The notes below the pieces were generated by a model that was given only the letters and a program-made list of their open reading frames with translations, was not told the DNA's origin and ran no database searches. 51,822 nucleotides of DNA from Deltaproteobacteria bacterium (GTDB taxonomy: Bacteria; Myxococcota_A; JAADFL01), in NCBI GenBank assembly GCA_013152945.1, contig JAADFL010000151.1:1-51822 (forward strand), in the 5' to 3' direction. Positions 53 to 37,318 of the stretch are shown piece by piece (position 1 is the first letter of the stretch; the number at the start of each line of letters is the position of its first letter). The position numbers and the translations under genes are program-made.

Positions 53-70
53 TGTAGACTGAAGTCTACT
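53..70. promoter_or_regulatory. Palindromic operator-like site, GTAGAC-N4-GTCTAC
   Basis: TGTAGAC (53-59), spacer TGAA, GTCTACT (64-70). The six-base arms and four-base spacer match the perfect sites at 1982-2005 and 22317-22338. It lies on the far side of the 210-244 terminator, so it probably does not serve the 272-1600 gene. Protein binding is inferred from symmetry and recurrence only. Confidence 0.5.
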
Positions 71-209
71 AGGCCGCTCAAGGCATCGGCTTGTCATAAT
101 TATTTGATATAACTATTAAAATATTAAAACACCCGTACCGGTCATTAAATTTGATGGGGATTATAGTCTACAGGTAGTGTTGCTAATTATCCCTATCAAC
201 TCTACTGGA

Positions 210-1654: not shown

Positions 1655-1670
1655 GCAAACCCCACACCAA
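1655..1670 (-). promoter_or_regulatory. Candidate sigma-54 (-24/-12) promoter of the TSP3 gene
   Basis: Minus-strand TTGGTGTGGGGTTTGCA has GG and GC separated by exactly ten bases and matches the consensus TGGCACG-N4-TTGC at 8 of 11 informative positions. A transcript would start near 1643, leaving about 43 bases of leader before the ATG at 1600. Palindromic sites lie 130-340 bases upstream, the usual range for enhancer-binding activators. Predicted from sequence only. Confidence 0.5.
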
Positions 1671-1869
1671 GTGTTGACTCATATACCCATATATTATTTA
1701 TTTAACGTGTTTTCAATATGTTAAGCAAGGCTGGTATAATGAATTCAACATTGATCCCACAAATAATATGTAGACTATAACCCCCAGCGGCAATTCGCCC
1801 AAAAGCACCGAAGTTGACTTTATACTTTTTAATAAATTATTTTATCTAATTATATTAAGTCAATAGCAT

Positions 1870-1891
1870 CTTGTAGACTATATGCTACAAG
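1870..1891. promoter_or_regulatory. Imperfect palindromic operator-like site
   Basis: CTTGTAG (1870-1876) and CTACAAG (1885-1891) are inverted repeats. Aligned to the perfect sites it reads TGTAGAC-TATA-TGCTACA: one arm intact, the other changed at two bases, with the same four-base spacer. It sits about 230 bases upstream of the predicted start of transcription of the TSP3 gene. Confidence 0.45.
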
Positions 1892-1981
1892 TCTTCCAAA
1901 GCCTGCTGCTTTTTATAATAACAAATTATTATAAAAATTAATAATAAAATAAAGCATTTTGCCATTAATGAGATTAAAATA

Positions 1982-2005
1982 AAGTGTAGACTATTGTCTA
2001 CACTT
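1982..2005. promoter_or_regulatory. Perfect 24-base palindromic operator-like site
   Basis: Two ten-base arms, AAGTGTAGAC (1982-1991) and GTCTACACTT (1996-2005), flank a TATT spacer. The inner 20 bases (1984-2003) are the exact reverse complement of 22318-22337, twenty kilobases away in another intergenic region. A dimeric DNA-binding protein is the simplest explanation. The position upstream of a -24/-12 promoter suggests an enhancer site. Confidence 0.65.
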
Positions 2006-2028
2006 GTGGCAATACAGTACGATGAAGT

Positions 2029-2046: not shown

Positions 2047-2171
2047 CGAGTAGTGGTAAAGCACTTGGATAACGGGCGGAACGCATGAGAATCCTATCTG
2101 CAACGGCTATGGCGTCTACTCTGTTATTATACTATTATTATAAAGAACGCATGTACGCGTTTGCACTAATC

Positions 2172-2193
2172 AAAAAAAATCGAATAAGATTTT
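2172..2193 (-). terminator. Weak terminator candidate after the GMC gene
   Basis: On the minus strand AAAATC (2193-2188) can pair with GATTTT (2181-2176) around a six-base loop, and the run of T continues to 2172. The stem is short and AT-only, so termination here is uncertain, but it is the only hairpin with a U-tract just beyond the last gene of the long minus-strand cluster. Confidence 0.3.
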
Positions 2194-2246
2194 GTCCTGA
2201 TCACTTCCATTTTGAAGACAAAAGATTAAAAAAACAGACAGTATAA

Positions 2247-3917: not shown

Positions 3918-3926
3918 GATACACCC

Positions 3927-4535: not shown

Positions 4536-4544
4536 GTCGCCCTC

Positions 4545-6909: not shown

Positions 6910-6929
6910 TAGCTTTCACCGATTTTTCA

Positions 6930-11868: not shown

Positions 11869-14475
11869 CTATTTTTCCTCGATGGGGAAAAAGTCGGCAT
11901 CGGTCAAAGGAACGTCGTTCCAATTCGGAGTTTTCTTTCCGTCATGGTAAACTATTGGAATCAATGCAGCCCTGAATATGGCGTATGCATTTGGATTGCC
12001 GTCCGGTGTCTGAGCGAAATAGACGTAAATGTTGTTGTGTCCCGGACCGAAACCCAAGTCCAATGTTTCCATCAACGTGATATTCTTGACCTTGAATGAA
12101 ATACAGTTTTTCTCTGAAACACCCACGCGAATAGTCTCCCTTATCCTGCAGATGCCGCCATTCTTGCAATCTGCCTGGGAGGTGCAGGGTGGATCGTCAG
12201 GCTCCCCATCACACCAGAATCCATCTTTGGGAAGAAGATTGTCGTCTACTTCCACGGTAACCCAGGCTGGTTTGATGTCATTTTCGATTCTCATTCCAGC
12301 CGGGCATGTGGCGCCTTGACACGGCGGACCGGAACACACACCTGCCTCGGCATCGCAACGCTGACCCGATGAACAGTCCACGTTCATGCATCTGTCCGGC
12401 AGGCAGGAACCGAGAATGAGATCACACCTGGTACCCAAGCCGCACTCGGCCTTGGTACAATCAGGCCTGCACATACCACTGATCGGAACACACTTTTCCG
12501 TAGACAGGCATGTGGTATGCGTACACTTGTCCGGTACGCAAGTGCCGCTGGCCGGATTGCACCATTCGCCGGTTGAGCATGCCACGGCGCAATCCTTGAC
12601 ACACGTGCATGTAGAATAGAGGAGATACTTCCCTGAGCCTGTAAGAGCCACCTTCTTTCCTGATTGACCATCTCCCGGGGCCTGCCAAGTAAGTGCCCGA
12701 GGATCCGGATAGTAACACAGAACGCCAAGGCCGGTCGGTGACCGGCTGGACACATCGGTAACGCGTACGCCGGTCAACTTGTACGGCTGGCTGGAAAAGG
12801 GCACCATTTTCAATCCTTCGTCCGTAATGTCGTATTTGTAGGCCATGCCCGAGCGGGATGAAACGTCATCTGCCCAGGGGTCGAGATGCATTTCAAGTTC
12901 GGAGCCATTGTTCAAGCCGTCCCTGTCCAAATCTTTTAGATTGTCACTTTCCAGGTAATTGGTTCCATAGAGAAACTCCAGCCTGTCCGGGTACCCGTCC
13001 TTATCCGTGTCAAAGAGGCTGGGATCCGTTCCCAGTATTTTTTCCTCACAGTCATTTAATCCGTCTGCATCCTTGTCCCCATACGGCCGGGTAAGTTCGA
13101 CACATGCGTCGGGAATATCCATTCTAAGGGGGTCCAGGTTCACCGTGGAAAACAACATCTCCACCATGTCGCTTATTCCGTCGCCGTCGGTATCCGCCTT
13201 GGCCGGATCGGTATCGGTGCCGCCGGGGTTGGTATTCTTGTTCCATGTATCCTTGGTACAGTTGCACCTGGAGTAGTCGCTGCAAATGCCCGACAGTATT
13301 TCTCCATAACAGTTTTCTTCCTGATCGCTCATGCCGTCCATGTCACTGTCGGGCAACAGCTTGCCTGCTTGCGCCTTTGCGTTCAGGTTGGATACGATGA
13401 ATGCCTTTTTGAGAAATATTGTGCTCCTCGACTCGTAGTTCAAAGCACCGAAATTAACCTGGTCGCCTTTTACAAACCGTAAAGAACTTCCCATGCCTGC
13501 GGTTGCCATGGCCTTGAGAAGCTCGTATGTATAGTCATTGGTTGCGCCGTTCGGATCGTTACATGCCAAAGTAGGACAGCAATGCTTGTCTATCTGGCAA
13601 ATCTTGGAATTGTCGTTGTTACAGACCTTCAGATATTCACACGTGCTTCCACAATCCGAATGTGCCGTACATGTAACCGTTGGATCGTCCGTACATCGCT
13701 GTTCGGGATCGAGGCACTTCTCGTCGCCCGCACAGTTGACGGGGCAGGGTGCGGTCGAACTGCAATTTCTGTCTGCCATGCCCTGACAAGTGCCGGGCTT
13801 GTCGTCCAGTTGAACCGTATGAAAAGAGACATCGGCCACGCCGTTCTTCTTGCCGAAATCAACCAGGCCGGTCACCTGCTTGACAAGCCTGCACTTCTCG
13901 TCACAACCGTTATTAGGATCTACCGGAATGGGCGGGTCTGGCGATCCGTTGACCAGAAAGATAAAGACATACCTTGTCCTGGAAAGCGTACCTGGATTTG
14001 TGGTCAAAACATCACCGGTGAAAATACTGCCTGCCAGGGATATGGCCCCCATCCAGTCGCGACAGGATCCTTCCTCGCATGGATCTATAATTGCAAGACT
14101 TGCCGTAGCTTCCCTTAAAGCAACTTGGTTCTTCGTATAACCTTCTTCCGTGAGCTGAATGGCCTTTCCGGCAAACTTTACTATGGCAAAGGTATAGTTG
14201 GAGGCTGTCTTGTAACGATCGATTACATCTTCAACCGCGAATCTCCTCCTGGTGTTGGGATCGTTTTCCGCCATGGATCCGGACGTGTCGACAATGAACA
14301 TGATTCGAACCGGGAACTGCCTTTGAGCCGGATCATCGGTGCACACACGGCCCGAAATCGATATCTTGTCCGGCACCTTCGGCGCTATGCCCTGGTGGTA
14401 TATATTTGTATCCGTACAACCAGGAGAAAATACGGCCAGCAATGATATGAAAGCCAGGATCTTCGATGCCATCAT
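11869..14475 (-). CDS. VWA/TSP3 lipoprotein with a Cys-rich insert (paralogue 3)
   Basis: An 868-residue lipoprotein; the start is one of two adjacent ATGs (14475 or 14472) behind GAGAGGTG. Lipobox SPGC (Cys 20). The VWA domain has the metal site DTSGS (63-67) after FPVRIMFIV, a strand shared by all three paralogues. Its second half contains an extra stretch of roughly 90 residues with about 14 Cys, absent in the paralogue at 20071-21921. TSP3-type Asp-rich repeats follow, then another Cys-rich block and a C-terminal beta domain opening with VKNITLMETL, matching VDEISL and VDNITL in the paralogues. VWA domains bind protein ligands through a metal; TSP3 repeats bind calcium. Surface adhesion or scaffold roles are likely but unproven. 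Confidence 0.9.
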   Translation of the reverse strand: MMASKILAFISLLAVFSPGCTDTNIYHQGIAPKVPDKISISGRVCTDDPAQRQFPVRIMFIVDTSGSMAENDPNTRRRFAVEDVIDRYKTASNYTFAIVKFAGKAIQLTEEGYTKNQVALREATASLAIIDPCEEGSCRDWMGAISLAGSIFTGDVLTTNPGTLSRTRYVFIFLVNGSPDPPIPVDPNNGCDEKCRLVKQVTGLVDFGKKNGVADVSFHTVQLDDKPGTCQGMADRNCSSTAPCPVNCAGDEKCLDPEQRCTDDPTVTCTAHSDCGSTCEYLKVCNNDNSKICQIDKHCCPTLACNDPNGATNDYTYELLKAMATAGMGSSLRFVKGDQVNFGALNYESRSTIFLKKAFIVSNLNAKAQAGKLLPDSDMDGMSDQEENCYGEILSGICSDYSRCNCTKDTWNKNTNPGGTDTDPAKADTDGDGISDMVEMLFSTVNLDPLRMDIPDACVELTRPYGDKDADGLNDCEEKILGTDPSLFDTDKDGYPDRLEFLYGTNYLESDNLKDLDRDGLNNGSELEMHLDPWADDVSSRSGMAYKYDITDEGLKMVPFSSQPYKLTGVRVTDVSSRSPTGLGVLCYYPDPRALTWQAPGDGQSGKKVALTGSGKYLLYSTCTCVKDCAVACSTGEWCNPASGTCVPDKCTHTTCLSTEKCVPISGMCRPDCTKAECGLGTRCDLILGSCLPDRCMNVDCSSGQRCDAEAGVCSGPPCQGATCPAGMRIENDIKPAWVTVEVDDNLLPKDGFWCDGEPDDPPCTSQADCKNGGICRIRETIRVGVSEKNCISFKVKNITLMETLDLGFGPGHNNIYVYFAQTPDGNPNAYAIFRAALIPIVYHDGKKTPNWNDVPLTDADFFPIEEK

Positions 14476-14516
14476 TTCACCTCTCTTGACCTGACCCAGG
14501 AACATCTCAATACAAC

Positions 14517-16712
14517 TTAGTTACCACACCAATACGGCGGATTCGGCTGATTCTCGTTGGGACAACACATCTCGGCGCAATCAGCCTTGCACCCGGAACA
14601 AGCAAGGGGACATTGCCTCTTTGCCCTAATCGTTACCCTGTAGGGATTCTTGTAGTCATATTTTTTCCTGTCATAGTGCATCACCCTGAAATAGAAAGGC
14701 CGGGCTGAATCCGTTTCTCCGCAGAAGTACACGCACTCGTCATCACCGAACACGCCGCCCGCAGTGTTTTTGAAACATGCACCTTCTACGCTCCTGCTCC
14801 CGGGAGTAGCACAAAACCCGACCGTGCCCCTTCTGGTGCCTCCAAGAAATGCTGTGTAGTATATTTGCAAATCCGGGTTGCCGTTGAAGCTCCATTCGAA
14901 GGACAGATCCCAATCTACGAATTTGTCACAATCCTGATCAGGCTTTTGATCCTTGGGCGGAAAGTCGCCTCCACCCTCCATTTTCATGACGTACCAATCC
15001 TGGTCTCCCCTGAAGGAAAGGTAGCCCTCTATGGTGTCACAAACAATCTCGGAGGTCTCCAGGTGCGCCGGATCCGTTTCCCTGCAGGTTATGCTCTTGG
15101 CAAGTTTCTTGTTGAGCTGTATGGTGGCGGCTTCCTGGTCGTTCGTTGCATAAGGCAGATAGATTCCATTCGGCGGGAATTCATATTTATCAGGCTCCTG
15201 CATCGTAGTAACGGTCAGTGTATACGAAGTATCCGGATCCATTTTTTCCGCTTGAAAGTCCCGTACAAGCACATAATAAAGATTCCCGTACATCGGAGCT
15301 ACCGTGTGCAAGTGCCTGGGATCACCTGTTTCACTCCACTCCTTTCCCTGCAAAGTCAGGTGTCTCAATGCACATCCATCCGGCAGGCAAATGCTTGCGC
15401 CCCTGCATTTGCCCTTGTTTTGATCACATTCGTGCGATGGACACTCGGCATCCAGGCAATCCTTGTCTCCCTCACAGCCCGAGCAATTCCATTCCAGGTA
15501 TTCACATGCGTCTCCTTGTTCGCATGAAGACCTGGGATCGGCCACGATTAGATCAACGGCAGGCTGAACAGGACTCGATCCATTGTACTTGAGGTCTACC
15601 TGGATGATCCCCGGATTGGTATCAGTGACCCCCGGCGCTGAAATCCGGTACCAATCTTCATCCCCCCTGGTGGCAAGGTAAGCAGAGACAGGACTACCAC
15701 TTTGTATGGATGTGGCCTTGGACCAGCCATTGTTTTCCTCGTTTTGATCCGGGTCCTGTCTCTTGCTCAAAGTCAGGACGTAGCCTTGTTCCAGATCCAC
15801 ATCATCATTGCCCTCGTCCTTGACCACCAAGTAGTAAGTTCCCGTTTTGTAAAGGGGCAGCACGTCGTGAAGTTTCGTAGGTCCCTTGGTCCCGTCGAAA
15901 TTTCCGCCGGTATTGACCACGGTTTTTCCGTCCGGCTCGATCAATGTGTATCTCAGGTCCACCGGTGTTGCAGCTTGCGTACTCAAATCGATTATTACTA
16001 TCTCGCCGGCCGTAGCATCCAGCTTGAACCAGTCACTGTCAGAGTTATAGGAAATATACCCCTTTTGGCCCGGCACAACGGCCTTTGCCTCTTCCTTTGA
16101 ATCGTTGGGCTCGTATTTGTCCGGATCTTGGGCCAATACCAAGGACACCTGGTAAGGTGTTCTTGTATCCTCCTCGTCCTTGCCCTCATCGTAGATCTCT
16201 ACAAAATAGGTTCCTGCCTGCCTTGCATAGTACTTGTCATCGATGAGTGTACCTTGGTTCTGGTGATCCTCCGCATAGTCACAAGCAGCGCCCAAAACCG
16301 ATTCGTCATTCCCCTGCCGGGTTATCCTGTAACAGTAATCCACTCCGCCGAGCCTTACTCCGGTCTGTATTTTCAATTCCACGATCGTGCCGGGAGATGC
16401 AACGGTAAACCAGTAATAGTCCTTGTCGATCGGTGGGCAAATATAACCTGTAATGCCGTCACTCCCGGACTTGAGTTCCCACGCCGGGGCTGTCGAGTCT
16501 GGTTGTGAATCATCGACATGGCATTCCACGTCAGTATCCGTATCGGTATCAACATCAGTATCACTGTCTCCTCCCGTGCCTGCTCCACAACCTCCGCCCC
16601 AGGGCACGAACAAGAGAACAAAGCCGGCGGCCAAAATGGCTCCGATAGCGGTCCCGAGCAGTGCGGAAAACCTTGGTACTGTTTTTCCGGTTTTTTTTCT
16701 TGTACCCTCCAT
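14517..16712 (-). CDS. PPC-domain surface protein with Asp-Thr linker
   Basis: A 731-residue protein. An N-terminal hydrophobic segment ends in GGGC (Cys 42), a weak lipobox, then a short acidic linker of Asp-Thr/Asp-Val pairs. About four bacterial pre-peptidase C-terminal (PPC) domains follow, each with the pattern D-x-Y-E-x-N-D ... D-x-D-W-(F/Y); the clearest begins DKYEPNDSKEEA. A Cys-rich insert lies near the middle, and a Cys-rich tail ends the protein. PPC domains are beta sandwiches found on secreted proteases and adhesins; no catalytic domain is present. It lies 22 bases after one VWA gene and about 40 before the next, so it is co-transcribed with them. ATG at 16712 is supported by AAAGGAGAT upstream. 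Confidence 0.87.
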   Translation of the reverse strand: MEGTRKKTGKTVPRFSALLGTAIGAILAAGFVLLFVPWGGGCGAGTGGDSDTDVDTDTDTDVECHVDDSQPDSTAPAWELKSGSDGITGYICPPIDKDYYWFTVASPGTIVELKIQTGVRLGGVDYCYRITRQGNDESVLGAACDYAEDHQNQGTLIDDKYYARQAGTYFVEIYDEGKDEEDTRTPYQVSLVLAQDPDKYEPNDSKEEAKAVVPGQKGYISYNSDSDWFKLDATAGEIVIIDLSTQAATPVDLRYTLIEPDGKTVVNTGGNFDGTKGPTKLHDVLPLYKTGTYYLVVKDEGNDDVDLEQGYVLTLSKRQDPDQNEENNGWSKATSIQSGSPVSAYLATRGDEDWYRISAPGVTDTNPGIIQVDLKYNGSSPVQPAVDLIVADPRSSCEQGDACEYLEWNCSGCEGDKDCLDAECPSHECDQNKGKCRGASICLPDGCALRHLTLQGKEWSETGDPRHLHTVAPMYGNLYYVLVRDFQAEKMDPDTSYTLTVTTMQEPDKYEFPPNGIYLPYATNDQEAATIQLNKKLAKSITCRETDPAHLETSEIVCDTIEGYLSFRGDQDWYVMKMEGGGDFPPKDQKPDQDCDKFVDWDLSFEWSFNGNPDLQIYYTAFLGGTRRGTVGFCATPGSRSVEGACFKNTAGGVFGDDECVYFCGETDSARPFYFRVMHYDRKKYDYKNPYRVTIRAKRQCPLACSGCKADCAEMCCPNENQPNPPYWCGN

Positions 16713-16734
16713 GCCATTTATCTCCTTTGGAATC

Positions 16735-19700
16735 CTATTCTCCGTACTTTACACAGTCCCGGTCCGCATCGAACCAATCGGTGCACCTTTTCCGTTCACT
16801 TGGATTGGAAGGAACACACCTGCCCTTGCATGGAATGTGCGCACAATCCTCATCAGTGCTGCAAGGCTTGTAGCAGAAACCGGCATCACAAATCATATCG
16901 GCTTCAGGACAAGGGGTGTCCTGGCTACAGGAAATGCTGCCGGGATAATCACACCTCCCCGATGCCGGATTGCACTTGTAGTATGGGCAATCCTGATCGC
17001 TGGAACAGGATTCCTGTTCCAGGGTGTCACAGTTTCCAAGCCCGTTTTCCCTGTGGCACAAGAATCCTGTTTCACAAACCCTGTCCGTGCTTTCCGTATC
17101 AGGGTTGCACGTTATGGAAGGATCGTTGATGCAGGTATGATCCGTTGAGCAGAAATGCTGAGGGCAAGTCAAATCAGTATCGCATTTCCGGGAGGGATCG
17201 TTCAGGCAAACCCGGTAACTGTTGCACATGTTGGGGGGACAATCCATATCGACCTGGCACTGGGTGCCGCTAAGCGCACATGTGCCAAGTCCACTGACAG
17301 GATCGATGTTTTGGCATGGGTTGACCGGGCAATCTCCGGTCTTTTGGCAGTTATCATCCGAAAGGGAGCATTTACTCGCTTTACCGGAGCAAAACCTGTA
17401 TGGACAGTCAATATCACGATCGCAAGGCTCCCCGATCAGGGCATTACATGTATATCCCCGTTCTCCCCTGCAATCTTCGTTACTTTCACAAGGCACTCCC
17501 GTGCATACACCAAGCACGGGCTCACATTTCCGGTTGGGACATTCACGTGAATCCACACAGGGTTGAATTCTGCACTTTTTGAGTTCCGGATCGCAAGGTT
17601 CCACCGGACAATCTCCATCAGCAGTACAAGGCACACCGGCACATATCCCTCCGTGATGGTCTACGCAATGGTGGCTTGCACAAAAATTATTGACACAAGT
17701 ATCTGTCAAATTAGGACAGTCGCTGGCCGAGGTGCAAGGTGTTTGGCAAAGTCCTTGCTCGCACTGTTGACCGGCATCACAATCCGCCGGACTCGTGCAT
17801 TTCTTGTAATCGCCGGGCAGATCTTGTTCGCAGGTTTCACCCGCATTACATGCATAGGACCCGGCGCACGGGCTCCTGCAGAATCCGCTGACACAATCAT
17901 CGTCATTATCCGGATCAGAGTCCCGGTTGTCCGGACAATCGGATGCGACAGTACACGTGGGATACACAGGTTCACAAATTCTTCTCGGACAAAGCCCTGT
18001 AATAGGATCCGGAGTACTTTTTGCCGAGTCCATACAAAGTCCGGTGTCCTTGTTTATCGGGTAAGGCGGGCAATCCTCGTCCGAAGAACATGCGGACCTG
18101 ATAGGATAGATACAATTCTTGACTCCTGTTCGCGGATCCTCTGCACAAGTGAAATGAGGACAGGGAGTATTCTCATCACACTTTTCTCCAAGCGGGGCAA
18201 GGCAGAGATGGTTCGAAGGATCGCATACAAAATGGGGGCACTCCTCATCATCCGAACACCGGGTGGCCACAGGACGCTTGAAGTCTTTCTGTTCCAACCT
18301 GACGACGCCGCTCGGCGGGTACTTCACGTCAGGTTCAGGATATCTTGGTATGTACCTGACCCTTGCACAGGCCACCCTGAATGTTCCATAGTCTTTCGGG
18401 TTGTCCAGCGGAACCTCACCTGCGTACACCATTACATCGTTGAACCCCTTGAGCCCTCCCTTGGTCCTGGCCTGTGTCCCCACGAGCGTGATATTGTCCA
18501 CTTTGAACTGGTAGCAAAACCTGCTTTCGTACACACCGGGCTTTTTCGTAAAATGGTACCTATAAGCACGCTTGGAGAAAAATGCCGCATCATTGGCTCC
18601 CGGGTTGGTATGCCATGCAATCTCGTCACCATTCAAAGAACCATCGAAATCCTTGTCTGTATCGGAATCGTTGTCTACCGGGCTTGTGCCTGCCCTTACT
18701 TCCAGGTTGTCCGGTATTCCGTCGGAATCTGAATCGAACAAATCCGGGCTGGTACCGATGAATCTCTCTTCGCAATCCAAGAGAGTATCTCCATCCCTGT
18801 CCATTCGTTCAAGTGCTGTCCTACAGTCTGCATCGTTCGGGTCGAGCGGATCGAATCCGGAATCTTTCAGCCTTTCCTCGAGGTAATCACTGAAACCATC
18901 CCCATCCGTATCCCGCAATCCCGGATCAGTTCCCAGCATCGCCTCCTGGATATCTACGAGACCGTCACCGTCTGTATCGATATTTTCGTTGATATTCCAT
19001 GCAGGATCCGCATTATCATTGAATACCAGAAACGATCCGTCCTTTACCTCATACATTCTCTTTACCGAGGTAAAATTTATATCAAGGTAGTTTATGCTCT
19101 CTCCATTGGGGAAACTCCTGAATGTTCCTCCTCCTATCTCCGCCATGCTCTGCAACAACTTGTCGGCTTCGGCTTCCACGTACTCGGGCATACCCGTAGC
19201 CAAAAGGGCTGTATGAAAACTTAATTCCCTAACCTTGAACCGGTCTTTCAATCTGACCAGTTCTCTTACTGCATCCCTGATGCTTGCCGGGGTGTTTACA
19301 CCGTTTCCCTGGGGATAGGGGAGCCCGTCTGTTAAAAAAATCACGATATACCTTGACCTAGCCCGTTCCTGGACCGTGTTCATACTCATGTCCATGGCCA
19401 GTGTCGCCTCGGCAAGTCCCAGCGCCGCCTGGTAACTGGTGTTGCCGCCGGCGGCTTGTAAGGAATTGAGAGCTCTCAATAATGAGGGCAGGTCGTTGAC
19501 AAAGCCGAACATGTCGGCGAAGCCGTCTCCATTGGTATCGGCCTGGGTAGAGACATTCGCAGAGCCGGAGAATCTTACGATTGCAAATGACACTCCCGGA
19601 TCATACCGGAATTTCTGTATTACATCCCATACAGCCCTCACCCTGCCCGGATATTCGTTCGGTGAGGGAGGGGGATCTGTCTGTGACATGCTCTGGGAAC

Positions 19701-19908
19701 AATCCACTATGAACATTATCTTGACCGGGAAGTCGAGTTCGTCCGGATACTCGGTGCAGAAATTCCCAATCACCGTCAGCCGGTTGTCGGACTGCATCTT
19801 GCTCGTATCATGTGTTTCAAAGACATCCACATCGGTGCATGCCAAACCCATTGCAGTCAATGCAATGAACAAGGCCAAGACCCGGATGTCAAGCATTTGG
19901 CTTTTCAT
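16735..19908 (-). CDS. VWA/TSP3 lipoprotein with long Cys-rich tail (paralogue 2)
   Basis: A 1057-residue lipoprotein; the ATG at 19908 has GGAGGT nine bases upstream and is preferred over a start seven codons earlier. Lipobox GLAC (Cys 24) is followed by TDVDV. The VWA metal site reads DCSQS (69-73), which still fits DxSxS although the second residue is Cys. TSP3 repeats (about residues 310-430) precede the shared C-terminal beta domain (VDNITLVGTQ). Unlike its paralogues it carries about 510 further residues (DNA 16735-18275) of some twenty short units like D-x-D-CP-x-x-x-C-x-x-x-x-G-x-C, each disulfide-rich. It is likely exposed on the cell surface; the ligand is unknown. Confidence 0.9.
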   Translation of the reverse strand: MKSQMLDIRVLALFIALTAMGLACTDVDVFETHDTSKMQSDNRLTVIGNFCTEYPDELDFPVKIMFIVDCSQSMSQTDPPPSPNEYPGRVRAVWDVIQKFRYDPGVSFAIVRFSGSANVSTQADTNGDGFADMFGFVNDLPSLLRALNSLQAAGGNTSYQAALGLAEATLAMDMSMNTVQERARSRYIVIFLTDGLPYPQGNGVNTPASIRDAVRELVRLKDRFKVRELSFHTALLATGMPEYVEAEADKLLQSMAEIGGGTFRSFPNGESINYLDINFTSVKRMYEVKDGSFLVFNDNADPAWNINENIDTDGDGLVDIQEAMLGTDPGLRDTDGDGFSDYLEERLKDSGFDPLDPNDADCRTALERMDRDGDTLLDCEERFIGTSPDLFDSDSDGIPDNLEVRAGTSPVDNDSDTDKDFDGSLNGDEIAWHTNPGANDAAFFSKRAYRYHFTKKPGVYESRFCYQFKVDNITLVGTQARTKGGLKGFNDVMVYAGEVPLDNPKDYGTFRVACARVRYIPRYPEPDVKYPPSGVVRLEQKDFKRPVATRCSDDEECPHFVCDPSNHLCLAPLGEKCDENTPCPHFTCAEDPRTGVKNCIYPIRSACSSDEDCPPYPINKDTGLCMDSAKSTPDPITGLCPRRICEPVYPTCTVASDCPDNRDSDPDNDDDCVSGFCRSPCAGSYACNAGETCEQDLPGDYKKCTSPADCDAGQQCEQGLCQTPCTSASDCPNLTDTCVNNFCASHHCVDHHGGICAGVPCTADGDCPVEPCDPELKKCRIQPCVDSRECPNRKCEPVLGVCTGVPCESNEDCRGERGYTCNALIGEPCDRDIDCPYRFCSGKASKCSLSDDNCQKTGDCPVNPCQNIDPVSGLGTCALSGTQCQVDMDCPPNMCNSYRVCLNDPSRKCDTDLTCPQHFCSTDHTCINDPSITCNPDTESTDRVCETGFLCHRENGLGNCDTLEQESCSSDQDCPYYKCNPASGRCDYPGSISCSQDTPCPEADMICDAGFCYKPCSTDEDCAHIPCKGRCVPSNPSERKRCTDWFDADRDCVKYGE

Positions 19909-20070
19909 GGGACCTCCATAAAGCCACAAGGGTCACCCGGCAACACCTGCCCGGATCATTCTTCGACCTCGAAGCCTCATCCGCATCACCCGCTTATACC
20001 AACCTGTTCCCGGAAAAAATACCAAAACATATCCTGCCCCCTTTGGATGGATCCCTTTCAGGATGAGTTG

Positions 20071-21921
20071 TCAACGATCCGCCGTGACACAATCTCCACC
20101 CGGAAAGCTTAGATCCAACATTGCGGGATCCTTGAAATCATCATCTTCAATGGTTATCTTGCCGTCAAAAGGCACCTTGTAATCAGGAGCTATGTATTGC
20201 ACCCTGACACAGGCGACCTTGAAGGTGCCCGTGTCCCACGGGTCATCATATGCAGCGACGTCGAACCAAATCAGGATATCATTGTATCCCATGCCATCCA
20301 TATTGTTTCTTTCCTGGGTAGTTACCAGGGATATCTCGTCCACGGTAAACTTGTAGCACTGCCTTCCATTGTTGTCTTTCTCCAAGGCCCCCATTGAATA
20401 CCAGTATCGTTTGTTGTTCCACAGTTCCGGATCTGATTGTGAAGGATTGGACCTCTCCAACAGCTCGTCAGCGTTTCGCCGTCCATCTGCATCAAGGTCG
20501 CCATCCCCATCCGGTTCGAGAGGGTTGGTATTGAATCTTACCTCGTACAAATCAGGAAATCCGTCGGCGTCCGTGTCAACCAGCTTGGGATCGGTTTTGT
20601 ACAATGCCTCCTCGCATGCGTTTAGTCCATCACCGTCACTATCCGACAGATCGTTGCAAGGAACTTCGGGCTTGTCAGGATCAGTCGGATCATAGCCTGC
20701 GGATTTCCATTTCGTTTCAATGAAATCGCTGTAACCGTCATTGTCAGTGTCCGGGTTCAGAGGATCCGTGGCCGGGTCACTCTCTTCCTCCTCCTTGTCA
20801 GGGATACCATCGCTGTCCGAGTCGGGTAAAAACTTATTAATATATGGGAATGCCGTAATATTGCTGACAATGAGATTCTTGGCAGAGTAATTGCGCTTGA
20901 TTGAAGTATAGTCGATACGAAGGAAATTGATCTCTTCACCGGAAGTGAAATCACTGAACGTGCCGTTTCCCTGCCTTGACATCTGTCTTAGCAGGGCCCT
21001 GCCCCGGTCGGGATCGAGATTATAGGCCGCCTCTGCAGCAGCGCACAGGGCAGAGGTGGGATTGCCGTTTTTATCACGGCAGTAGAGAAATGCCGTGTGC
21101 AGCCTCAAATCTCCCACCTTGAAAGCATCTTTGAGGTCCATGATATCATCCACCAAAGCAAAGATTTGGTAATCATTGTTATAGTCCACGCCACCTTCAA
21201 GCAATGGGAAATAACCCTGGCTAACCATGTTGGCGAAGTTGCCCATTTGGAAATCAGTAAGAACCCGGTCGCCCAGGGTGCACGTGACATGCAAATCTTC
21301 GTTGCAAGTCGGCGAATACCTTGGATGGTCCGGCGGCTCTGTGACACATCCGTAACAAACCGGGTCAGGGGTTCCGTCGGAAAAGAATATGATTACGTAT
21401 TTCGTCCTGGTCAACTCGGATCGGTCGGAGTTCATCATGTCCTTCAGCAGTTCCTGGTAGGCTACGCCCAATGCTCCCTGGTAATCAGTCTGTGAATCCG
21501 CCTGGAGCAGTCCGGCTGAACCGAATATGGCTTCCTTGTTTGCAACGCTTCCCGCAGGTTCGAAACCTTCGGTCAAAACGTCAACCTTGCCGTTGAACTT
21601 GATGATATCGAAATAGACCTGTGGGTTGTCCGCAAACTTGTTCACCACGTCTCTGACGGCCTGGGCCCTGTAATCCCCCTCGTCTGTCTGCTGCATGCTT
21701 CCGGAAGCATCTACGATGAACATTATCTTCACGGGAAAATCGGAATCCTGTGGAGGCTTGGAACACACTTCCCCTGAAATCGACAGCAAGTCGTCCACTT
21801 GGGAAACCTTGAACTTGGGCTTGGCTTCAACGTCAGCATCAGTACATGATGACAACATGGAGAAAAGCATTGCCAGCGCCGCTGCCATTGCGAAGTAATT
21901 GAGTTCTGCGACGCGTTTCAT
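20071..21921 (-). CDS. VWA/TSP3 lipoprotein (paralogue 1, first of the cluster)
   Basis: A 616-residue lipoprotein, the most compact of the three paralogues. Lipobox LSSC (Cys 26), then TDADV. VWA domain with FPVKIMFIVDASGSM (metal site 71-75), TSP3 repeats with DSDSDGIPD-type units (around residues 365-480) and a C-terminal beta domain (VDEISLVTTQ). GGAGGTGCCGAA precedes the ATG. The gene faces the 21922-22613 control region, with a strong -24/-12 element about 160 bases upstream. It is likely the first gene of a transcript that runs through the following lipoproteins; a 160-base gap separates it from the next start at 19908. Role inferred as metal-dependent surface binding. Confidence 0.92.
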   Translation of the reverse strand: MKRVAELNYFAMAAALAMLFSMLSSCTDADVEAKPKFKVSQVDDLLSISGEVCSKPPQDSDFPVKIMFIVDASGSMQQTDEGDYRAQAVRDVVNKFADNPQVYFDIIKFNGKVDVLTEGFEPAGSVANKEAIFGSAGLLQADSQTDYQGALGVAYQELLKDMMNSDRSELTRTKYVIIFFSDGTPDPVCYGCVTEPPDHPRYSPTCNEDLHVTCTLGDRVLTDFQMGNFANMVSQGYFPLLEGGVDYNNDYQIFALVDDIMDLKDAFKVGDLRLHTAFLYCRDKNGNPTSALCAAAEAAYNLDPDRGRALLRQMSRQGNGTFSDFTSGEEINFLRIDYTSIKRNYSAKNLIVSNITAFPYINKFLPDSDSDGIPDKEEEESDPATDPLNPDTDNDGYSDFIETKWKSAGYDPTDPDKPEVPCNDLSDSDGDGLNACEEALYKTDPKLVDTDADGFPDLYEVRFNTNPLEPDGDGDLDADGRRNADELLERSNPSQSDPELWNNKRYWYSMGALEKDNNGRQCYKFTVDEISLVTTQERNNMDGMGYNDILIWFDVAAYDDPWDTGTFKVACVRVQYIAPDYKVPFDGKITIEDDDFKDPAMLDLSFPGGDCVTADR

Positions 21922-22079
21922 TTCGGCACCTCCATTTTTTCAAGCAATCATTACTCATTCATTAGTCTATCGAACCAAGCACATAAAATCGAGCTGAACT
22001 ATGCGAGCAGCCGGATACATGCAAAATTTCTTTCAACGCTTTGTGCTTTACCATATTCATCGCAAGTATACATGTGTAC

Positions 22080-22094
22080 GCAATACTCGGGCCA
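22080..22094 (-). promoter_or_regulatory. Sigma-54 (-24/-12) promoter of the VWA cluster
   Basis: Minus-strand TGGCCCGAGTATTGC matches TGGCACG-N4-TTGC at 10 of 11 informative positions, with GG and GC ten bases apart. The transcript would begin near 22068, giving a leader of about 147 bases. The perfect palindrome lies about 250 bases upstream of that point and the half-site stem-loop about 170, the geometry expected for enhancer sites. Confidence 0.65.
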
Positions 22095-22231
22095 TAAAAA
22101 ATATTTCAAAAGCCGTGTACCCAAAAAAGAAAATCAAGCCGGCAAATCGACAACGCATTGAAACTCAAGGTTTTTTTCAGACATGCCGTGATTCTTGAAC
22201 GAACTACTGTCAAGGCTGACAATATCCCACG

Positions 22232-22257
22232 AGGAATAAAGTCTACACTTTATTCCT
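22232..22257. repeat. Ten-base inverted repeat with TCTACA loop
   Basis: AGGAATAAAG (22232-22241) pairs with CTTTATTCCT (22248-22257) around TCTACA. The centre reads GTCTACA, a half-site of the palindrome found at 22317-22338. The hairpin lacks a T-tract. It may be an operator with one recognised half, or a structured leader element of an unseen transcript. Confidence 0.4.
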
Positions 22258-22316
22258 TTGTACCAGGCCCTTATGACAGGATTGTTTAAATACGTTAATA
22301 ATTCCGACATGTTATA

Positions 22317-22338
22317 TGTGTAGACAATAGTCTACACA
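22317..22338. promoter_or_regulatory. Perfect palindromic operator-like site
   Basis: TGTGTAGAC (22317-22325), spacer AATA, GTCTACACA (22330-22338). The 20 bases 22318-22337 are identical, in reverse complement, to 1984-2003. It stands upstream of the -24/-12 element of the VWA cluster and about 200 bases upstream of the plus-strand promoter at 22542, so either or both could be controlled. Confidence 0.65.
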
Positions 22339-22541
22339 CGCCTCCCTTGGACGTCTTTCCTTGAAACAATATTTATTTAAATATAACGTATGGTTGCTTG
22401 TTTGAGCCAATTCCACTATCAATTGTGCGTTGCCAAGGGGCAACAATTGTTCATCCGAATTTGCCGAGTTTGAAGCTTTTTCTTTTCCATGAAAATAATT
22501 TTCCCAGGTAAATGCAGTGATTGGCAATAGTTCTTCGGTAA

Positions 22542-22570
22542 TTGACCGAATTTTGCATACAGTATATTCT
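22542..22570 (+). promoter_or_regulatory. Sigma-70-like promoter of the 22614 lipoprotein gene
   Basis: TTGACC (22542-22547), 17-base spacer, TATTCT (22565-22570). Transcription would start near 22577, leaving about 37 bases of leader that contain the AAGGAG ribosome site before the ATG at 22614. Confidence 0.5.
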
Positions 22571-22613
22571 CTTGATGGTATGAATTTAAGCATTGCCTGA
22601 AAAGGAGTAAGCC

Positions 22614-24173
22614 ATGTTTGCCAAAAATGGAGTTAAATCTTTTAAAATTATTGCTCCGATAATCCTGGTGGCAGTTTTTCTATTTTCATTTTCTTTTATG
22701 CAGTGCAGTTCCAAAAGCAACAATGGATCAGATGCGGACACCGATACAGATACAGATACCGATACAGATACCGATACAGATACCGACACGGACACGGACA
22801 CAGGTGTTTCACTAACCCTGACATGGAGTGAACGCCAGGAGGTAGACCTGGACAATGCGGGTTTGGCCCTGGATATCGCGGCAAGCCGCGACGATTCTTT
22901 TGGAATCGCCTACTACAAGAGGGGGGATGATGCTGGCCTTTGTGAAACTCCTATTCTTGGAGGTCCACCTACACCTGTTCACAGGGACGTGGTCAGCTAT
23001 GCGTGGCTCGAAAACGGTGTATGGCAAAAGGAAGATATCAAACCGGATCTGGAAGACGAGTACCTCACCGGAATTTCTATCGTGTTTTCGAATGATAACA
23101 CCCCCATGGTGGCTTACCTTGGCGGGCAGGAGTCATCGCAATGTTGTGGCGGAAGCGACCTGATAGTCGCCCAAAGAACCGGTCCCGGTGCCTGGACCGA
23201 AACCCCTGTTGTAACAGATTCCAACCAGGCGGCTGCAGGTGCCGCCTGCCCCAAGATGCAGGCAATTTGTGATACCGGGGACACAGTGGGCTTATGGCCG
23301 GATCTTGCTGTTGCTCCGGATGGAACCATCGGCGCCACATATCGTGACATCCATCTTTGCTATGCCAAGGAAGACCAGGACAGCTCGGACCTGGAATATG
23401 CAGCAATGCCGCCGAACGGCGCGTGGAGCATACACCAATGGATAGACATAGCAAGGGGGGCCGGGAACTTCAGCCACCTTGCTTTCGGTCCCGACAACCA
23501 GCCTGCGGTAGCACATTACGACGCCAAGTTCCAAATGCTCTTGTTCGCACGCAGAACCGATGATGGTTGGAGTAACCAGCCTTGCCCCGGCGGGTCGAAC
23601 GATGAGTGCCCTAACGGACAAAAATGTATCCACTTCTATTGTGCCCAGCTTGTTCATACCAAGGCATTCGATCATCCGCCGCCGGAAGGTTCCATGGATA
23701 TGGCAATCGATCCCCAGGGTGGTTTTTTGGTGGCGTACTTCGATCCGGACGAAAAGAGCCTGAGAATGGCCTACTCCCAGGATGGACTTTCCTGGAAGTC
23801 GGGCGTGGTGGATTCCAAGGGTTCGACAGGCTTTTCTCCATCACTGGTATTTGATCCGAATACCGGGAAACCCGGCGTTGCATATTACCGCTGCAGCGAT
23901 TATGAAAAGAACAAGCTGGAATGCAACAGAAATCAGGACGGTGTGTACTTCTCTTATCTGATTGGCGATTATCCGGCAGATGTTACGAACCAGAAAAAAT
24001 GGAAGCGTACAACCGTATCGGCGGATAGCGCAGCGGCGGATGGATTACACCTGTCGGCCGCGGTTCTGTCTGACGGAACCCTTGGTGTGGCCTACTCGTA
24101 CAGTTGGTGGGATCCATCCGGAGGAGGAGAAGGAAAGCTGCACCTGATGTTCAACAAAGGAACATGGAAGTAG
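22614..24173 (+). CDS. Lipoprotein with Asp-Thr linker and propeller-like domain
   Basis: A 519-residue lipoprotein with lipobox FMQC (Cys 31), then a linker of about a dozen Asp-Thr pairs (residues about 40-63), then a long beta-rich domain. Recurring patterns such as SRDDSFGIAYY, GTIGATYRD, QPAVAHYD, GGFLVAYFD and GTLGVAYS resemble blades of a sialidase/BNR-type beta propeller, though no active-site set is seen. AGGAG six bases before the ATG supports the start. The next lipoprotein follows at 24235 in the same direction. The linker probably holds the domain away from the membrane. Function unknown. Confidence 0.87.
   Translation: MFAKNGVKSFKIIAPIILVAVFLFSFSFMQCSSKSNNGSDADTDTDTDTDTDTDTDTDTDTDTGVSLTLTWSERQEVDLDNAGLALDIAASRDDSFGIAYYKRGDDAGLCETPILGGPPTPVHRDVVSYAWLENGVWQKEDIKPDLEDEYLTGISIVFSNDNTPMVAYLGGQESSQCCGGSDLIVAQRTGPGAWTETPVVTDSNQAAAGAACPKMQAICDTGDTVGLWPDLAVAPDGTIGATYRDIHLCYAKEDQDSSDLEYAAMPPNGAWSIHQWIDIARGAGNFSHLAFGPDNQPAVAHYDAKFQMLLFARRTDDGWSNQPCPGGSNDECPNGQKCIHFYCAQLVHTKAFDHPPPEGSMDMAIDPQGGFLVAYFDPDEKSLRMAYSQDGLSWKSGVVDSKGSTGFSPSLVFDPNTGKPGVAYYRCSDYEKNKLECNRNQDGVYFSYLIGDYPADVTNQKKWKRTTVSADSAAADGLHLSAAVLSDGTLGVAYSYSWWDPSGGGEGKLHLMFNKGTWK
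22735..22802 (+). repeat. Hexanucleotide (Asp-Thr) repeat tract
   Basis: In-frame GAY-ACN repeats; a 12-base unit GATACAGATACC recurs without change across 22750-22787. Because each unit is six bases, gain or loss alters linker length but not the reading frame. Confidence 0.8.
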
Positions 24174-24234
24174 TAAAGGCGGCTACTCTGACCGGGGTAT
24201 GAATACAGCCTATACTATATGGAGGAACCGTGTA

Positions 24235-24732
24235 ATGGCGGCAAGAGATATTAAAAGAGGCATCTTGGTTATGGCGGTAACTGCATCGGCCATGCTTATC
24301 GGGGCCTGTGGAGATGAAACAAGCCCTCTTGACGGAAGTGAATGCACGTTGATGAGCTGTAACTTCACCACCATCAAGTGCCAGGGTTTTTTCGACAAGG
24401 ATCAGGGCACGCCGAAAGACTTGAAAGTAATATACTTGAATACAGATGATACAGGTACGACCTATACAGCCGTGATTACCATAGATGTACGAAATATCTC
24501 GCCTGTAACCGGCGCTACCTTCAAGGGTCAGGATATGCTGGACCGGGTCACGCTTTACAGGCCTCCTCCGGGAGAGCCGTGGCCTGTGTTCACCGGCAAC
24601 TCGTGCCATATTTCAAATGGCGGCGACAAGCTTGGAGGAAAATACCAAGGCAAGTGCGGCTTCTTTTTTGATAATGGCAGGACCTTGACTGCCAGGTGGT
24701 CTTGCAAGCTGGAAGAGCCGAAACAAGAATGA
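24235..24732 (+). CDS. Small lipoprotein, unknown function
   Basis: A 165-residue protein with a signal ending in IGAC (lipidated Cys about 25). The mature part of about 140 residues has seven further Cys and alternating strands, and includes an Asn/Thr/Asp-rich beta segment. No family is recognised. The ATG at 24235 is chosen because GGAGG lies nine bases upstream; an in-frame ATG at 24199 lacks a ribosome site. It lies 61 bases after the propeller-like lipoprotein and is likely co-expressed with it. Confidence 0.78.
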   Translation: MAARDIKRGILVMAVTASAMLIGACGDETSPLDGSECTLMSCNFTTIKCQGFFDKDQGTPKDLKVIYLNTDDTGTTYTAVITIDVRNISPVTGATFKGQDMLDRVTLYRPPPGEPWPVFTGNSCHISNGGDKLGGKYQGKCGFFFDNGRTLTARWSCKLEEPKQE

Positions 24733-25562: not shown

Positions 25563-26450
25563 TCATTTCCCGCAAGAAGGAGTCTCGTTGTCAAAGTCTT
25601 TGAAATCCTTTTCGGAACAGGAGATAGCTTTCTGGCACTCCTTGTCGTAAGCTATATCACACACATTTTCAACACCCTGTCCGCAAAGGGCCAGTTTTAG
25701 AGGATTCAGTGTGCTCGAGTTGCTGAATATGTATATCAGGGCCCGGAAGTCACCGACAGAATCCGGTGTAAAGTTTACCCGCATCATAGTTGAATCTCCC
25801 GGTGCCAGCTTAATCGGGTCGTCCGTCGAGGCCCATTCCCAATGCATGAATGCACATGCACTGTCTCCGCCATGAAGTTCGGTCTTGTTCGGATAGATCA
25901 AGAGATCCTTGTCACCGGTGTTGTCGAACAGGAACTCGGTATTATAGGCTACGGGTCTGCAATACCCACCTGAACAATACTGGTTCGACTTGCAGGTTTC
26001 CTTCTTTGTGCAGGTTTCATGGCACCAGCCATTGTCACATTCGCCGCCGCCGGGGCATGTGCCTCCATCAGGATTGCATTGCTTGCAATAACCAAACGTC
26101 TGGTTGGCACCTGTATCCGTATCCGTGTCCGTATCCGTATCCGTGTCCGTGTCCGTGTCCGTATCCGTGTCTGCATCCGTGTCCGTATCCGTGTCCGTAT
26201 CCGTGTCTGCATCCGTGTCCGTATCCGTATCGCCGGATGACTCGGGCATCCAGCAGAAAGATCCCTGCTCCGTGCAATCCCCTGCCTGCTTACACCTTGT
26301 CTCCTCCTCTCCCGAGACTCCTATGTTATTGAGAATACGTACATTCAGGTCTACGCTGATCCTGGGTCCCGTGTCACTGCCACAACCAGATACAATAAAG
26401 AACAGGCCTATCAAAACCACCTTGAACAAATTTACATTGGTCGAATTCAT
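25563..26450 (-). CDS. Lipoprotein with Asp-Thr linker, Cys-rich and HYDIN-like domains
   Basis: A 295-residue lipoprotein (lipobox VSGC, Cys 23; ATG at 26450 behind AAGGAGGGATGAC). A 60-residue N-terminal segment with a Cys pair leads into a long Asp-Thr linker (about residues 74-113), then a Cys-rich module with CPGGGECDNGWC and YCSGGYCRP. A 90-residue beta domain, FDNTGDKDLLIY ... LCGQG, resembles ASH/HYDIN Ig-like folds. The gene lies 37 bases after the FHA-type activator gene in the same direction, so they are probably co-transcribed. The lipoprotein could sense or display envelope state for the activator, but that is inference. Confidence 0.85.
   Translation of the reverse strand: MNSTNVNLFKVVLIGLFFIVSGCGSDTGPRISVDLNVRILNNIGVSGEEETRCKQAGDCTEQGSFCWMPESSGDTDTDTDADTDTDTDTDTDADTDTDTDTDTDTDTDTDTDTGANQTFGYCKQCNPDGGTCPGGGECDNGWCHETCTKKETCKSNQYCSGGYCRPVAYNTEFLFDNTGDKDLLIYPNKTELHGGDSACAFMHWEWASTDDPIKLAPGDSTMMRVNFTPDSVGDFRALIYIFSNSSTLNPLKLALCGQGVENVCDIAYDKECQKAISCSEKDFKDFDNETPSCGK
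26107..26231 (-). repeat. Hexanucleotide (Asp-Thr) repeat tract with 36-base tandem unit
   Basis: GAY-ACN repeats on the coding strand. A 36-base unit at 26161-26196 is repeated exactly at 26197-26226 for a further 30 bases, including the one Ala-coding variant, which indicates recent tandem duplication inside the linker. Confidence 0.8.
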
Positions 26451-26487
26451 GTCATCCCTCCTTTCATTTACGAACAAAATTTCCCGG

Positions 26488-27921
26488 TTATTTCTTGTCT
26501 TTTGGAGAAGAGCCTCCCTTTGGCCTGCTTCCGACTCCAGAAATGCCGGACACCCCCGTGCCCCTTCGTGAAGGCCGGCCCAAACCGTGCTTTTCCAAAA
26601 GATTGTATAGATGTTTCCTGTCTATGCCTGCTGTTCTTGCAGCACCTGCAATGCCGCCGGAGGAACGTAGCATTAATCTTTTGACGTACTCACGCTCGAA
26701 TACATCCAGGAGCTTTTCCTTTGCCTCCTTGAAAGGCATTGAATAATCCGGCACCAGGGATCCTGTTGGATGATCCTGCCTGACGCCCAACACACCGGGA
26801 GGACCGCCGGTCAGTCCATCTTCATCCAGGGCCAGGCTTCTCTCCACTGCATTTCGAAGTTCTCGAACATTACCCGGCCATGAATGGTTGAGCCAACGCT
26901 CTCTCACGGCTGGAGCAAGCTTTTCGAACTGTCCCGGCTTCCCTGCAAAACGATCGAACAACAACGGGATATCTTCGGGTCTTTCCCGCAATGGCGGCAT
27001 CCTGATGATTACAACCGACAATCGATAATAGAGATCTTCCCTGAACCTGCCGGAAGCCACTTCCAGGGCCAAATCCTTTTTGCTTGCAGCCACGACCCTT
27101 GCATCGAACTTGACAGGTTGATTCGATCCCAGCCTCACGAATACCCTCTCTTCAAATGCACGAAGCAATTTCGGCTGGAGTTCCAAGGGCAGATCGTCGA
27201 GTTCGTCTATGAACAGGGTGCCTCCTGTAGATGATTCTATGGCACCAACCCGGGAGCTTGACGCACCGGTGAATGCACCTTTGACATGGCCGAACAACTC
27301 GCTCTCGATGAGAGACTTTGCCACTGCGCCGCAATCGACCACGACGAGAGGTCCCTTCTCACGCTTACTGAACTCGTGCAAGGCATGGACCGCAGCTCCC
27401 TTGCCCGTTCCGGTCTCCCCCATAAGCAACACCGTTGCCTCTGTCGGGGCCACCTTTTCCAGCAAGGCGAATACCTCACGTATTGCCACCGACCTGCCGA
27501 TCATGCCCCCGAAAGATTCGCGTTCGGAAGGCGTTATGTGAACCGGATCATACTCGGTGCGAAACCTGAATACTACTTCCCCGGCCTTGATAACCGCACC
27601 AGGGCGTAAATAGGCCTCCCTGACAGGTGCGCCATCAAGTTCCGTACCGTTCGTACTTCCGAGGTCTTTGATCAGGTACCTTCCTCCCTCGTTCACTATC
27701 TCGAAGTGCTGCCTGCTTACAGTGACGTCCGGTATGGTAACGTCACAGTCCGGACTCTTTCCGATGACCACTCTGCTTTTGCTTATCGGGTGTATGCGGC
27801 CGGGGTCAGGGCCTTCAGTTTCCACCAGTGTGCATCGTTGGAGGCTCAAGCCTCCATATCCATCGGCCCTTATGGCCCTCGTAGCCAAGCCGGTCTGGGT
27901 TTCGTCATCCCTAATCGACAT
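26488..27921 (-). CDS. FHA-domain sigma-54 activator (enhancer-binding protein)
   Basis: A 477-residue regulator. An FHA domain (about residues 40-118) has the core VVIGKSPDCDVTIPD...VSRQHFEI and LIKDLGSTNGT, which recognises phosphothreonine. The sigma-54 AAA+ domain (about 138-370) has Walker A GETGTGKG, the sigma-54-contacting loop GAFTGA and Walker B GGTLFIDELDD. A Fis-type helix-turn-helix (GGIAGAARTAGIDRKHLYNLLEKHGL region, about 418-447) binds DNA. There is no receiver domain, so control is probably by a Ser/Thr kinase, as known for FHA-type activators of myxobacteria. No such kinase is in the window. It is divergent from pyruvate kinase and is the only local candidate to bind the GTAGAC palindromes. 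Confidence 0.93.
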   Translation of the reverse strand: MSIRDDETQTGLATRAIRADGYGGLSLQRCTLVETEGPDPGRIHPISKSRVVIGKSPDCDVTIPDVTVSRQHFEIVNEGGRYLIKDLGSTNGTELDGAPVREAYLRPGAVIKAGEVVFRFRTEYDPVHITPSERESFGGMIGRSVAIREVFALLEKVAPTEATVLLMGETGTGKGAAVHALHEFSKREKGPLVVVDCGAVAKSLIESELFGHVKGAFTGASSSRVGAIESSTGGTLFIDELDDLPLELQPKLLRAFEERVFVRLGSNQPVKFDARVVAASKKDLALEVASGRFREDLYYRLSVVIIRMPPLRERPEDIPLLFDRFAGKPGQFEKLAPAVRERWLNHSWPGNVRELRNAVERSLALDEDGLTGGPPGVLGVRQDHPTGSLVPDYSMPFKEAKEKLLDVFEREYVKRLMLRSSGGIAGAARTAGIDRKHLYNLLEKHGLGRPSRRGTGVSGISGVGSRPKGGSSPKDKK

Positions 27922-37154: not shown

Positions 37155-37318
37155 GTATCCTGCGTACAGAACTCCATGCAAATACAATTAAATTTCGACA
37201 CCTGTTATTTTTGACTGAGGTGCCCCAAAACCCAGCCTGTACCAGCCAAAAATTTATCCGGCGGTAGAATAAAGGGCCACCCGGGGAAACAGAGCAGTTT
37301 CAGGTAACCGAATCTGCC

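Follow-up and report, generated by a model that had tools for sequence, protein, structure and literature searches.

The stretch of DNA analysed here (the window; 51,822 nucleotides) is the entire contig C151 of a Deltaproteobacteria bacterium genome (G000) of 4.84 Mb, which comprises 218 contigs and is 94% complete. It carries a surface-protein gene near its start, a cluster of genes for VWA-domain proteins and, beyond the cluster, the gene of a predicted sigma-54 activator:

272..1600, minus strand: mtsC, TSP3-repeat MYXO-CTERM surface protein (Pfam TSP_3), ATG at 1600
11869..19929, minus strand: VWA2-PPC-VWA3 stretch, the remainder of the cluster after VWA1
11869-14505, minus strand: VWA3, last gene of the cluster, order as in relatives
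14517-16712, minus strand: PPC-domain protein, between VWA2 and VWA3, order as in relatives
16735-19929, minus strand: VWA2, second gene of the cluster, order as in relatives
20071..21921, minus strand: VWA1, MtsD-like VWA-domain protein (Pfam VWA_2), first gene of the cluster
21922..22613, no strand: intergenic region of ~0.7 kb with promoter and dyads; EBP-A and mtsC stand at this cluster point in relatives
22614..24732, plus strand: g519 and g177, divergent; between EBP-B/g304 and EBP-A in relatives
25563..26477, minus strand: g304, next after EBP-B in relatives whose flank was read
26488..27921, minus strand: EBP-B, with FHA domain, sigma-54 activator AAA+ domain (GAFTGA) and Fis-like C-terminus, kept in the cluster

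The product of mtsC was assigned to MtsC with 553.3 bits against NCBIfam NF047638 (cut-off 350), and VWA1 reached 279 bits against NF047639 (MtsD), under the cut-off of 800, so that it can be called MtsD-like only. MtsC and MtsD are both annotated by NCBIfam as cell-cell cohesion proteins, and a passage of a myxosortase paper (PMC11980579), in which the name is spelled 'MstC', attributes to the former, with reference to Zhang et al. 2007, a part in cohesion between cells, in social motility and in development. Compared with the Myxococcus MtsC/MtsD pair, as that passage presents it, the window is alike in an MtsC above its cut-off and in MtsD being the best NCBIfam match of VWA1, and unlike in that VWA1 stays under the MtsD cut-off and that the cluster adds two VWA proteins and a PPC-domain protein. 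Just upstream of mtsC, at 2247-7625, genes for a GMC oxidoreductase, a gluconate dehydrogenase subunit 3-like protein, a multihaem-like cytochrome, cytochrome b and a Rieske protein form one run.

Five relatives carry the cluster (G377-G381; loci L038-L042), and G075 is a more distant relative. The full order in the relatives, which was pieced together as few stretches cover all of it, runs EBP-B, g304, g177/g519 (other strand), a second activator gene (EBP-A), mtsC (1-2 copies), VWA1, VWA2, PPC and VWA3. EBP-B, g304 and g177/g519 keep this order in four relatives, in three of which EBP-A comes next on the same contig, and in G075 a VWA gene directly follows mtsC. On the minus strand of the window, EBP-B, g304, g519/g177 and VWA1-VWA3 are ordered as in the relatives; EBP-A and mtsC are absent between g519 and VWA1, the gap at 21922-22613 lies in their place, and mtsC is found ~20 kb from its usual cluster position, at 272-1600. 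Comparison of the sequenced loci thus demonstrates a conserved cluster order from which EBP-A has been lost at its place. The two envelope units, which the earlier note had described as unlinked, are indeed separated here, but in the relatives they are neighbours in one cluster.

EBP-B lies 4.4 kb from the VWA1 promoter and has orthologues in 5/5 relatives. Its AAA+ domain matched PF00158 with 206 bits, with GAFTGA present, and its C-terminus is Fis-like by eye, HTH_8 not being reported at E up to 1; for EBP-A, HTH_8 was reported. EBP-A matches EBP-B best in this genome (48% identity), and the G380 query shares 67-72% identity with the EBP-A proteins of the other four relatives. In the tree, the window protein falls within the EBP-B clade with full support and EBP-A forms a separate clade, and EBP-B as the orthologue of the relatives' mtsC-adjacent activator was rejected on this ground. 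A search of plasmids with EBP-B returned generic activators alone, which match 65% of its length. FHA-domain enhancer-binding proteins are a known class in myxobacteria. EBP-A and EBP-B resemble it in combining an FHA domain, an AAA+ domain and a Fis-like C-terminus, and differ from it in being two FHA activators linked by gene order to a cohesion cluster, one of them lost here.

The elements located upstream of VWA1 and mtsC, and at the contig edge, are listed below; each distance is counted between the 5' ends of the 18-bp dyad and of the -24/-12 site. A longer form of the dyad reads GTGTAGACN4GTCTACAC.

22080..22094, minus strand: -24/-12 (sigma-54) element TGGCCCGAGTATTGC, 10/11, toward the VWA cluster, 5' end 173 bp from the ATG
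22230..22247, minus strand: dyad with one good half (TGTAGACTTTATTCCTCG), 153 bp 5' of the VWA1 -24/-12 element
22319..22336, no strand: perfect dyad TGTAGAC-N4-GTCTACA (20-bp form GTGTAGAC-N4-GTCTACAC at 22318-22337), 242 bp 5' of the VWA1 -24/-12 element
1655..1669, minus strand: -24/-12-like element TGGTGTGGGGTTTGC, 8/11, toward mtsC, position in agreement with orthologues
1769..1786, minus strand: dyad with one good half (TGGGGGTTATAGTCTACA), 117 bp 5' of the 1655-1669 element
1872..1889, minus strand: imperfect dyad TGTAGCATATAGTCTACA, 220 bp 5' of the 1655-1669 element
1985..2002, no strand: perfect dyad TGTAGAC-N4-GTCTACA (20-bp form at 1984-2003), 333 bp 5' of the 1655-1669 element
53..70, no strand: fourth GTAGAC dyad, at the contig edge just beyond the 3' end of mtsC
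155..172, no strand: half-dyad (GTCTACA at 166-172), accompanying the 53-70 dyad

Promoters were scored against the 11 bases of the consensus TGGCACG-N4-TTGC, and the best -24/-12 score within 200 bp 5' of the ATG was compared with dinucleotide shuffles and with the antisense strand. The element TGGCCCG-N4-TTGC, claimed previously to face the VWA cluster with 10/11 bases, was found at 22080-22094 (minus strand) with P 0.002 against shuffles of the 200 bp upstream, and it is supported by the relatives, in which VWA1 orthologues have a -24/-12 site at the corresponding position in 5/5 cases. A point against it is that VWA promoters of the relatives often show a substituted -12 C (TTGT, TTGG, ATGA, TTGT, TTGA). 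The predicted sigma-54 assignment of the VWA gene is correct. The 8/11 site of the TSP3 gene is present too, at 1655-1669 (minus strand) compared with about 1643 in the earlier note, but taken alone it is no better than chance (P 0.234, 200-bp upstream shuffles); backed by position and orthology, this putative site is plausible but weak. An rpoN gene with an open frame and no stops (PF04552, 214 bits) is present, so that the objection of a genome lacking rpoN, raised together with the original proposal, falls away.

Match counts of the -24/-12 pattern over the window or the genome were rejected as proof, since the background is large. The window contains 16 sites with at most two mismatches vs 15.6 in shuffles, and the genome 114 sites with at most one mismatch vs 66 for the reversed control pattern, which means that many -24/-12 matches are background. 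A set of 21 family promoters with hand-placed start codons was more informative. Four belong to this genome (mtsC, VWA1, a second mtsC copy on contig C183 and a Ser/Thr kinase gene on contig C182) and 17 to relatives (mtsC and VWA genes of G377-G381, the ExbB-type operon of G380 and the mtsC of G075). Scores of at least 9/11 were reached by 19/21, where shuffles expect 0.67 and the antisense strand gave 0/21, in a set of which two units (G380 locus L166) were chosen for their dyad and both depend on the hypothesis; among the relatives' promoters the count is 16/17, with 0.57 expected. The two promoters under 9/11 are the window mtsC (8/11) and the G380 ExbB-type operon, whose 10/11 site lies beyond 200 bp. 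By sequence comparison, conservation of these predicted promoters within the family can be regarded as demonstrated.

Farther out, 29 matches to mtsC were obtained outside this genome, of which 22 formed a wide set, one (G075) belonged to the first set, and six were left out (one match that lacked a locus, L124 and the four partial matches L126, L127, L128 and L130). In the wide set of more distant homologues, the sense strand reached at least 9/11 in just seven and the antisense strand in three. Ranks searched for more VWA homologues gave this genome alone at order and class level, and one besides its own below 1e-90 in the phylum sample (2/377 genomes). Upstream of the EBP genes themselves, -24/-12 sites scoring more than 9/11 were not found; two of 9/11 precede EBP-A, and none was seen at EBP-B.

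The palindromic half of the arrangement is rare in this genome. Exactly five copies of GTAGAC-N4-GTCTAC occur in 4.84 Mb, with 0.29 expected at equal base frequencies. Palindromes had been placed 130-340 bases upstream; the distances of 153 and 242 bp (VWA) and 117, 220 and 333 bp (TSP3) come close to this, but the mtsC and VWA1 loci each contain one perfect palindrome, and their remaining dyads keep one good half. Nine places have paired TGTAGAC halves 81-110 bp apart. Four are tandem repeats, and the other five fall within just three regions, which lie upstream of mtsC, VWA1 and the Ser/Thr kinase gene on C182. Dyads within these arrays are spaced 89-113 bp (~100 bp), and in all three complete arrays they lie 117-362 bp 5' of a -24/-12-like site. 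The dyad at 53-70 and the half-dyad at 155-172 make up a fourth, incomplete array at the contig start, and the target gene of the 53-70 dyad may lie beyond the contig. Palindromes as terminators were rejected, as no T-run follows those inspected.

The kinase gene (L043, G000:C182, 6066-8811) encodes a Ser/Thr kinase with two kinase stretches (Pfam Pkinase). A -24/-12-like element, CGGCACACATTTTGC, lies 44 bp 5' of its start (9/11, first base unusual, P 0.023), with dyads 148, 260 and 362 bp further upstream. The surface-protein regulon proposed in the earlier note gains backing from this locus, which has the same arrangement, and from the relatives. On the same contig, a lone receiver-domain protein (9313-9918) is divergent from the kinase with three GTAGAC sites in between, and a TSP3-OmpA protein (1393-5340) is encoded nearby. 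The second mtsC copy is seemingly split between L072 (G000:C183:1-504, minus strand) and L073 (G000:C177:5-550, plus strand), the parts being 85% and 71% identical. Its C183 part has a -24/-12-like site, and GTAGAC is absent within 3 kb; TGGCATGAATCTAGC stands 87 bp 5' of its ATG, and a perfect dyad TCCACAT-N2-ATGTGGA 90 bp 5' of TGGCATGAATCTAGC.

The same pair of motifs was expected upstream of homologues, and this expectation held for the -24/-12 site, which is kept in the relatives, but not for GTAGAC, which was found at 0/5 of the relatives' orthologous promoters (L038-L042). TGTAGAC-N4-GTCTACA is absent from the complete genome lists of G378, G380 and G381. The search for GTAGAC in the relatives led instead to a TGAAAC-type dyad. 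TGAAAC-N6-GTTTCA (or a near form) lies 91-94 bp 5' of the -24/-12 site at 8/8 mtsC promoters examined in cluster genomes (three in G377, two in G378, one in G380 and two in G381); farther out, at 177-180 bp, two of these have another full dyad, and two more have a half site at 178-181 bp. At 4/6 VWA promoters of relatives, TGTCAC-N6-GCTTCA (or a near form) lies 99-110 bp 5' of the -24/-12 site. The TGAAAC-type dyad is absent at two mtsC promoters, those of the extra G380 copy and of G075. In the window, TGAAAC-N6-GTTTCA and TGTCAC-N6-GCTTCA occur at or below shuffle level, with none near the mtsC and VWA1 promoters, and the change of dyad between this genome and its relatives is thus plain at the level of the DNA. 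A one-mismatch version of the relatives' dyad (GGAAACAGAGCAGTTTCA) at 37285-37302 precedes a hybrid histidine kinase gene (35089-37101); such matches are expected by chance.

Among 12 stretches of the relatives with further TGAAAC-like sites, only L166 (G380:C258) clearly had one directed toward a -24/-12 site of at least 9/11. At 3649-3668 of this locus, GTGGGGAC-N4-GTCCCCAC stands 145 bp 5' of the 10/11 -24/-12 site of the extra mtsC copy, a likeness to the layout of this genome that was noticed post hoc. The extra copy is followed by ExbB/ExbD-like genes (by eye), which have a separate TGAAAC-type dyad and a separate 10/11 site.

In sigma-54 systems, a closed complex is formed at -24/-12, and an activator bound to dyads contacts it through DNA looping and drives opening with ATP. 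The enhancer dyads lie roughly 70-300 bp upstream and are often in tandem. The dyad-promoter spacing in the relatives is, as predicted from sequence, typical enhancer geometry, and the dyads of this genome are also at enhancer distance, 117-333 bp (mtsC) and 153-242 bp (VWA1) upstream of the -24/-12 site. The GTAGAC palindromes are probably enhancers as well, other than those of the relatives, and mtsC and VWA1 look like parts of one sigma-54-controlled cohesion-protein set, in which the promoters were kept and the distant activator sites exchanged. It is quite likely that the mts genes form a conserved sigma-54 regulon of which the enhancer, and probably the activator, were exchanged in this genome.

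Under this reading, sigma-54 RNA polymerase would wait at the -24/-12 element, and an AAA+ enhancer-binding protein would gather on upstream dyads ~90-110 bp apart and contact the polymerase by DNA looping, so that MtsC, the MtsD-like VWA operon and the Ser/Thr kinase would be co-activated. In the relatives, this activator would be EBP-A, encoded directly upstream of mtsC and most likely acting via TGAAAC-N6-GTTTCA. This lineage has lost EBP-A from the cluster and the TGAAAC-type dyads from the examined promoters, which now have GTGTAGAC-N4-GTCTACAC arrays; their most likely reader would be EBP-B, the FHA-type activator that was kept, or else another activator of this genome. The enhancer role of the dyads and the candidate binder are inferred. 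In a weaker step, the kinase could phosphorylate a partner that is read by the FHA domain, giving positive feedback. The more specific scenario, in which a fixed regulon lost EBP-A and TGAAAC-N6-GTTTCA, kept its -24/-12 sites and gained a new array, with a kinase loop wiring cohesion to a phospho-threonine signal, is conceivable and is held here with somewhat less than even confidence.

The choice of EBP-B as binder has a competitor, in which another activator of this genome reads GTAGAC and control of the regulon passed to an unrelated signal pathway. EBP-A has 24 matches in this genome that span its AAA+ part, and one AAA+ activator match, on contig C160, also has an FHA-like motif. The EBP-B recognition helix is near-identical in the relatives, and its conservation, set against the absence of TGTAGAC-N4-GTCTACA in G378, G380 and G381, argues against EBP-B as the binder. 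On the other hand, EBP-B is the sole activator that the cluster retains and the one that EBP-A matches best in this genome, and one EBP-B-bearing relative has the dyad GTGGGGAC-N4-GTCCCCAC in the same layout, so that capture by another activator is a tenable but doubtful alternative.

Real -24/-12 promoters could also be combined with GTAGAC dyads that are operators of an unrelated regulator, for example a repressor or a sigma-70 activator of the TetR/GntR type. Perfect short palindromes are common operators, relatives lack GTAGAC at orthologous promoters, and so does the C183 mtsC copy despite its sigma-54-like site. We consider this unlikely, given three complete arrays 117-362 bp 5' of a -24/-12-like site without promoter overlap, sites that recur at 89-113 bp, an equally long dyad at a similar position in relatives, and one relative (L166) with the same layout at a sigma-54 promoter. 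In a further alternative, the -24/-12 matches would be chance hits in A+T-rich intergenic DNA, with palindromes that serve something else. Window counts do equal those of shuffles and the mtsC site alone has P 0.234; but 19/21 family promoters against 0.67 expected, 0/21 on the antisense strand and a near-constant dyad-promoter distance in relatives make chance, already disfavoured, a highly improbable explanation.

The preferred reading of an exchanged enhancer at conserved sigma-54 promoters shares with sigma-54 promoters driven by the NtrC family a -24/-12 element whose G and C keep a fixed spacing, dyads farther upstream, a GAFTGA AAA+ activator, a Fis-like HTH and rpoN. It differs in that the GTGTAGAC-N4-GTCTACAC dyad, which has candidate binders, was not found in the literature examined, and in that sites repeat ~100 bp apart. 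Inference from a conserved sigma-54 promoter and a dyad beside an EBP gene is shared with the Desulfovibrio EBP regulons derived by comparative genomics (PMC4641369), for which the parts of that study drawn on here give one motif across orthologous promoters, whereas the motif here differs from that of the relatives at the same promoters. Myxococcota are described as rich in sigma-54 activators in the portion of PMC12316311 used here. Open-access literature yielded nothing on mts gene regulation or on sigma-54 enhancer exchange at conserved promoters, which is weak evidence as most subscription journals lie outside it.

Sigma-54 promoters require an activator, and loss of the activator should therefore silence its genes. 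The mts genes would offer a small gene set with a fixed promoter in which the enhancer and the resident activator differ between relatives, so that the passing of a sigma-54 regulon from one activator to another could be studied with two proteins and two dyads. They would also provide a candidate switch, with sites and proteins named, for MtsC/MtsD-type cohesion proteins of Myxococcota. Elsewhere in the window, a 3646-aa frame at 39067-50007 adjoins an OmpA/TSP3 protein and has weak NCBIfam Sdr/Clf adhesin matches near its C-terminus, possibly due to low complexity.
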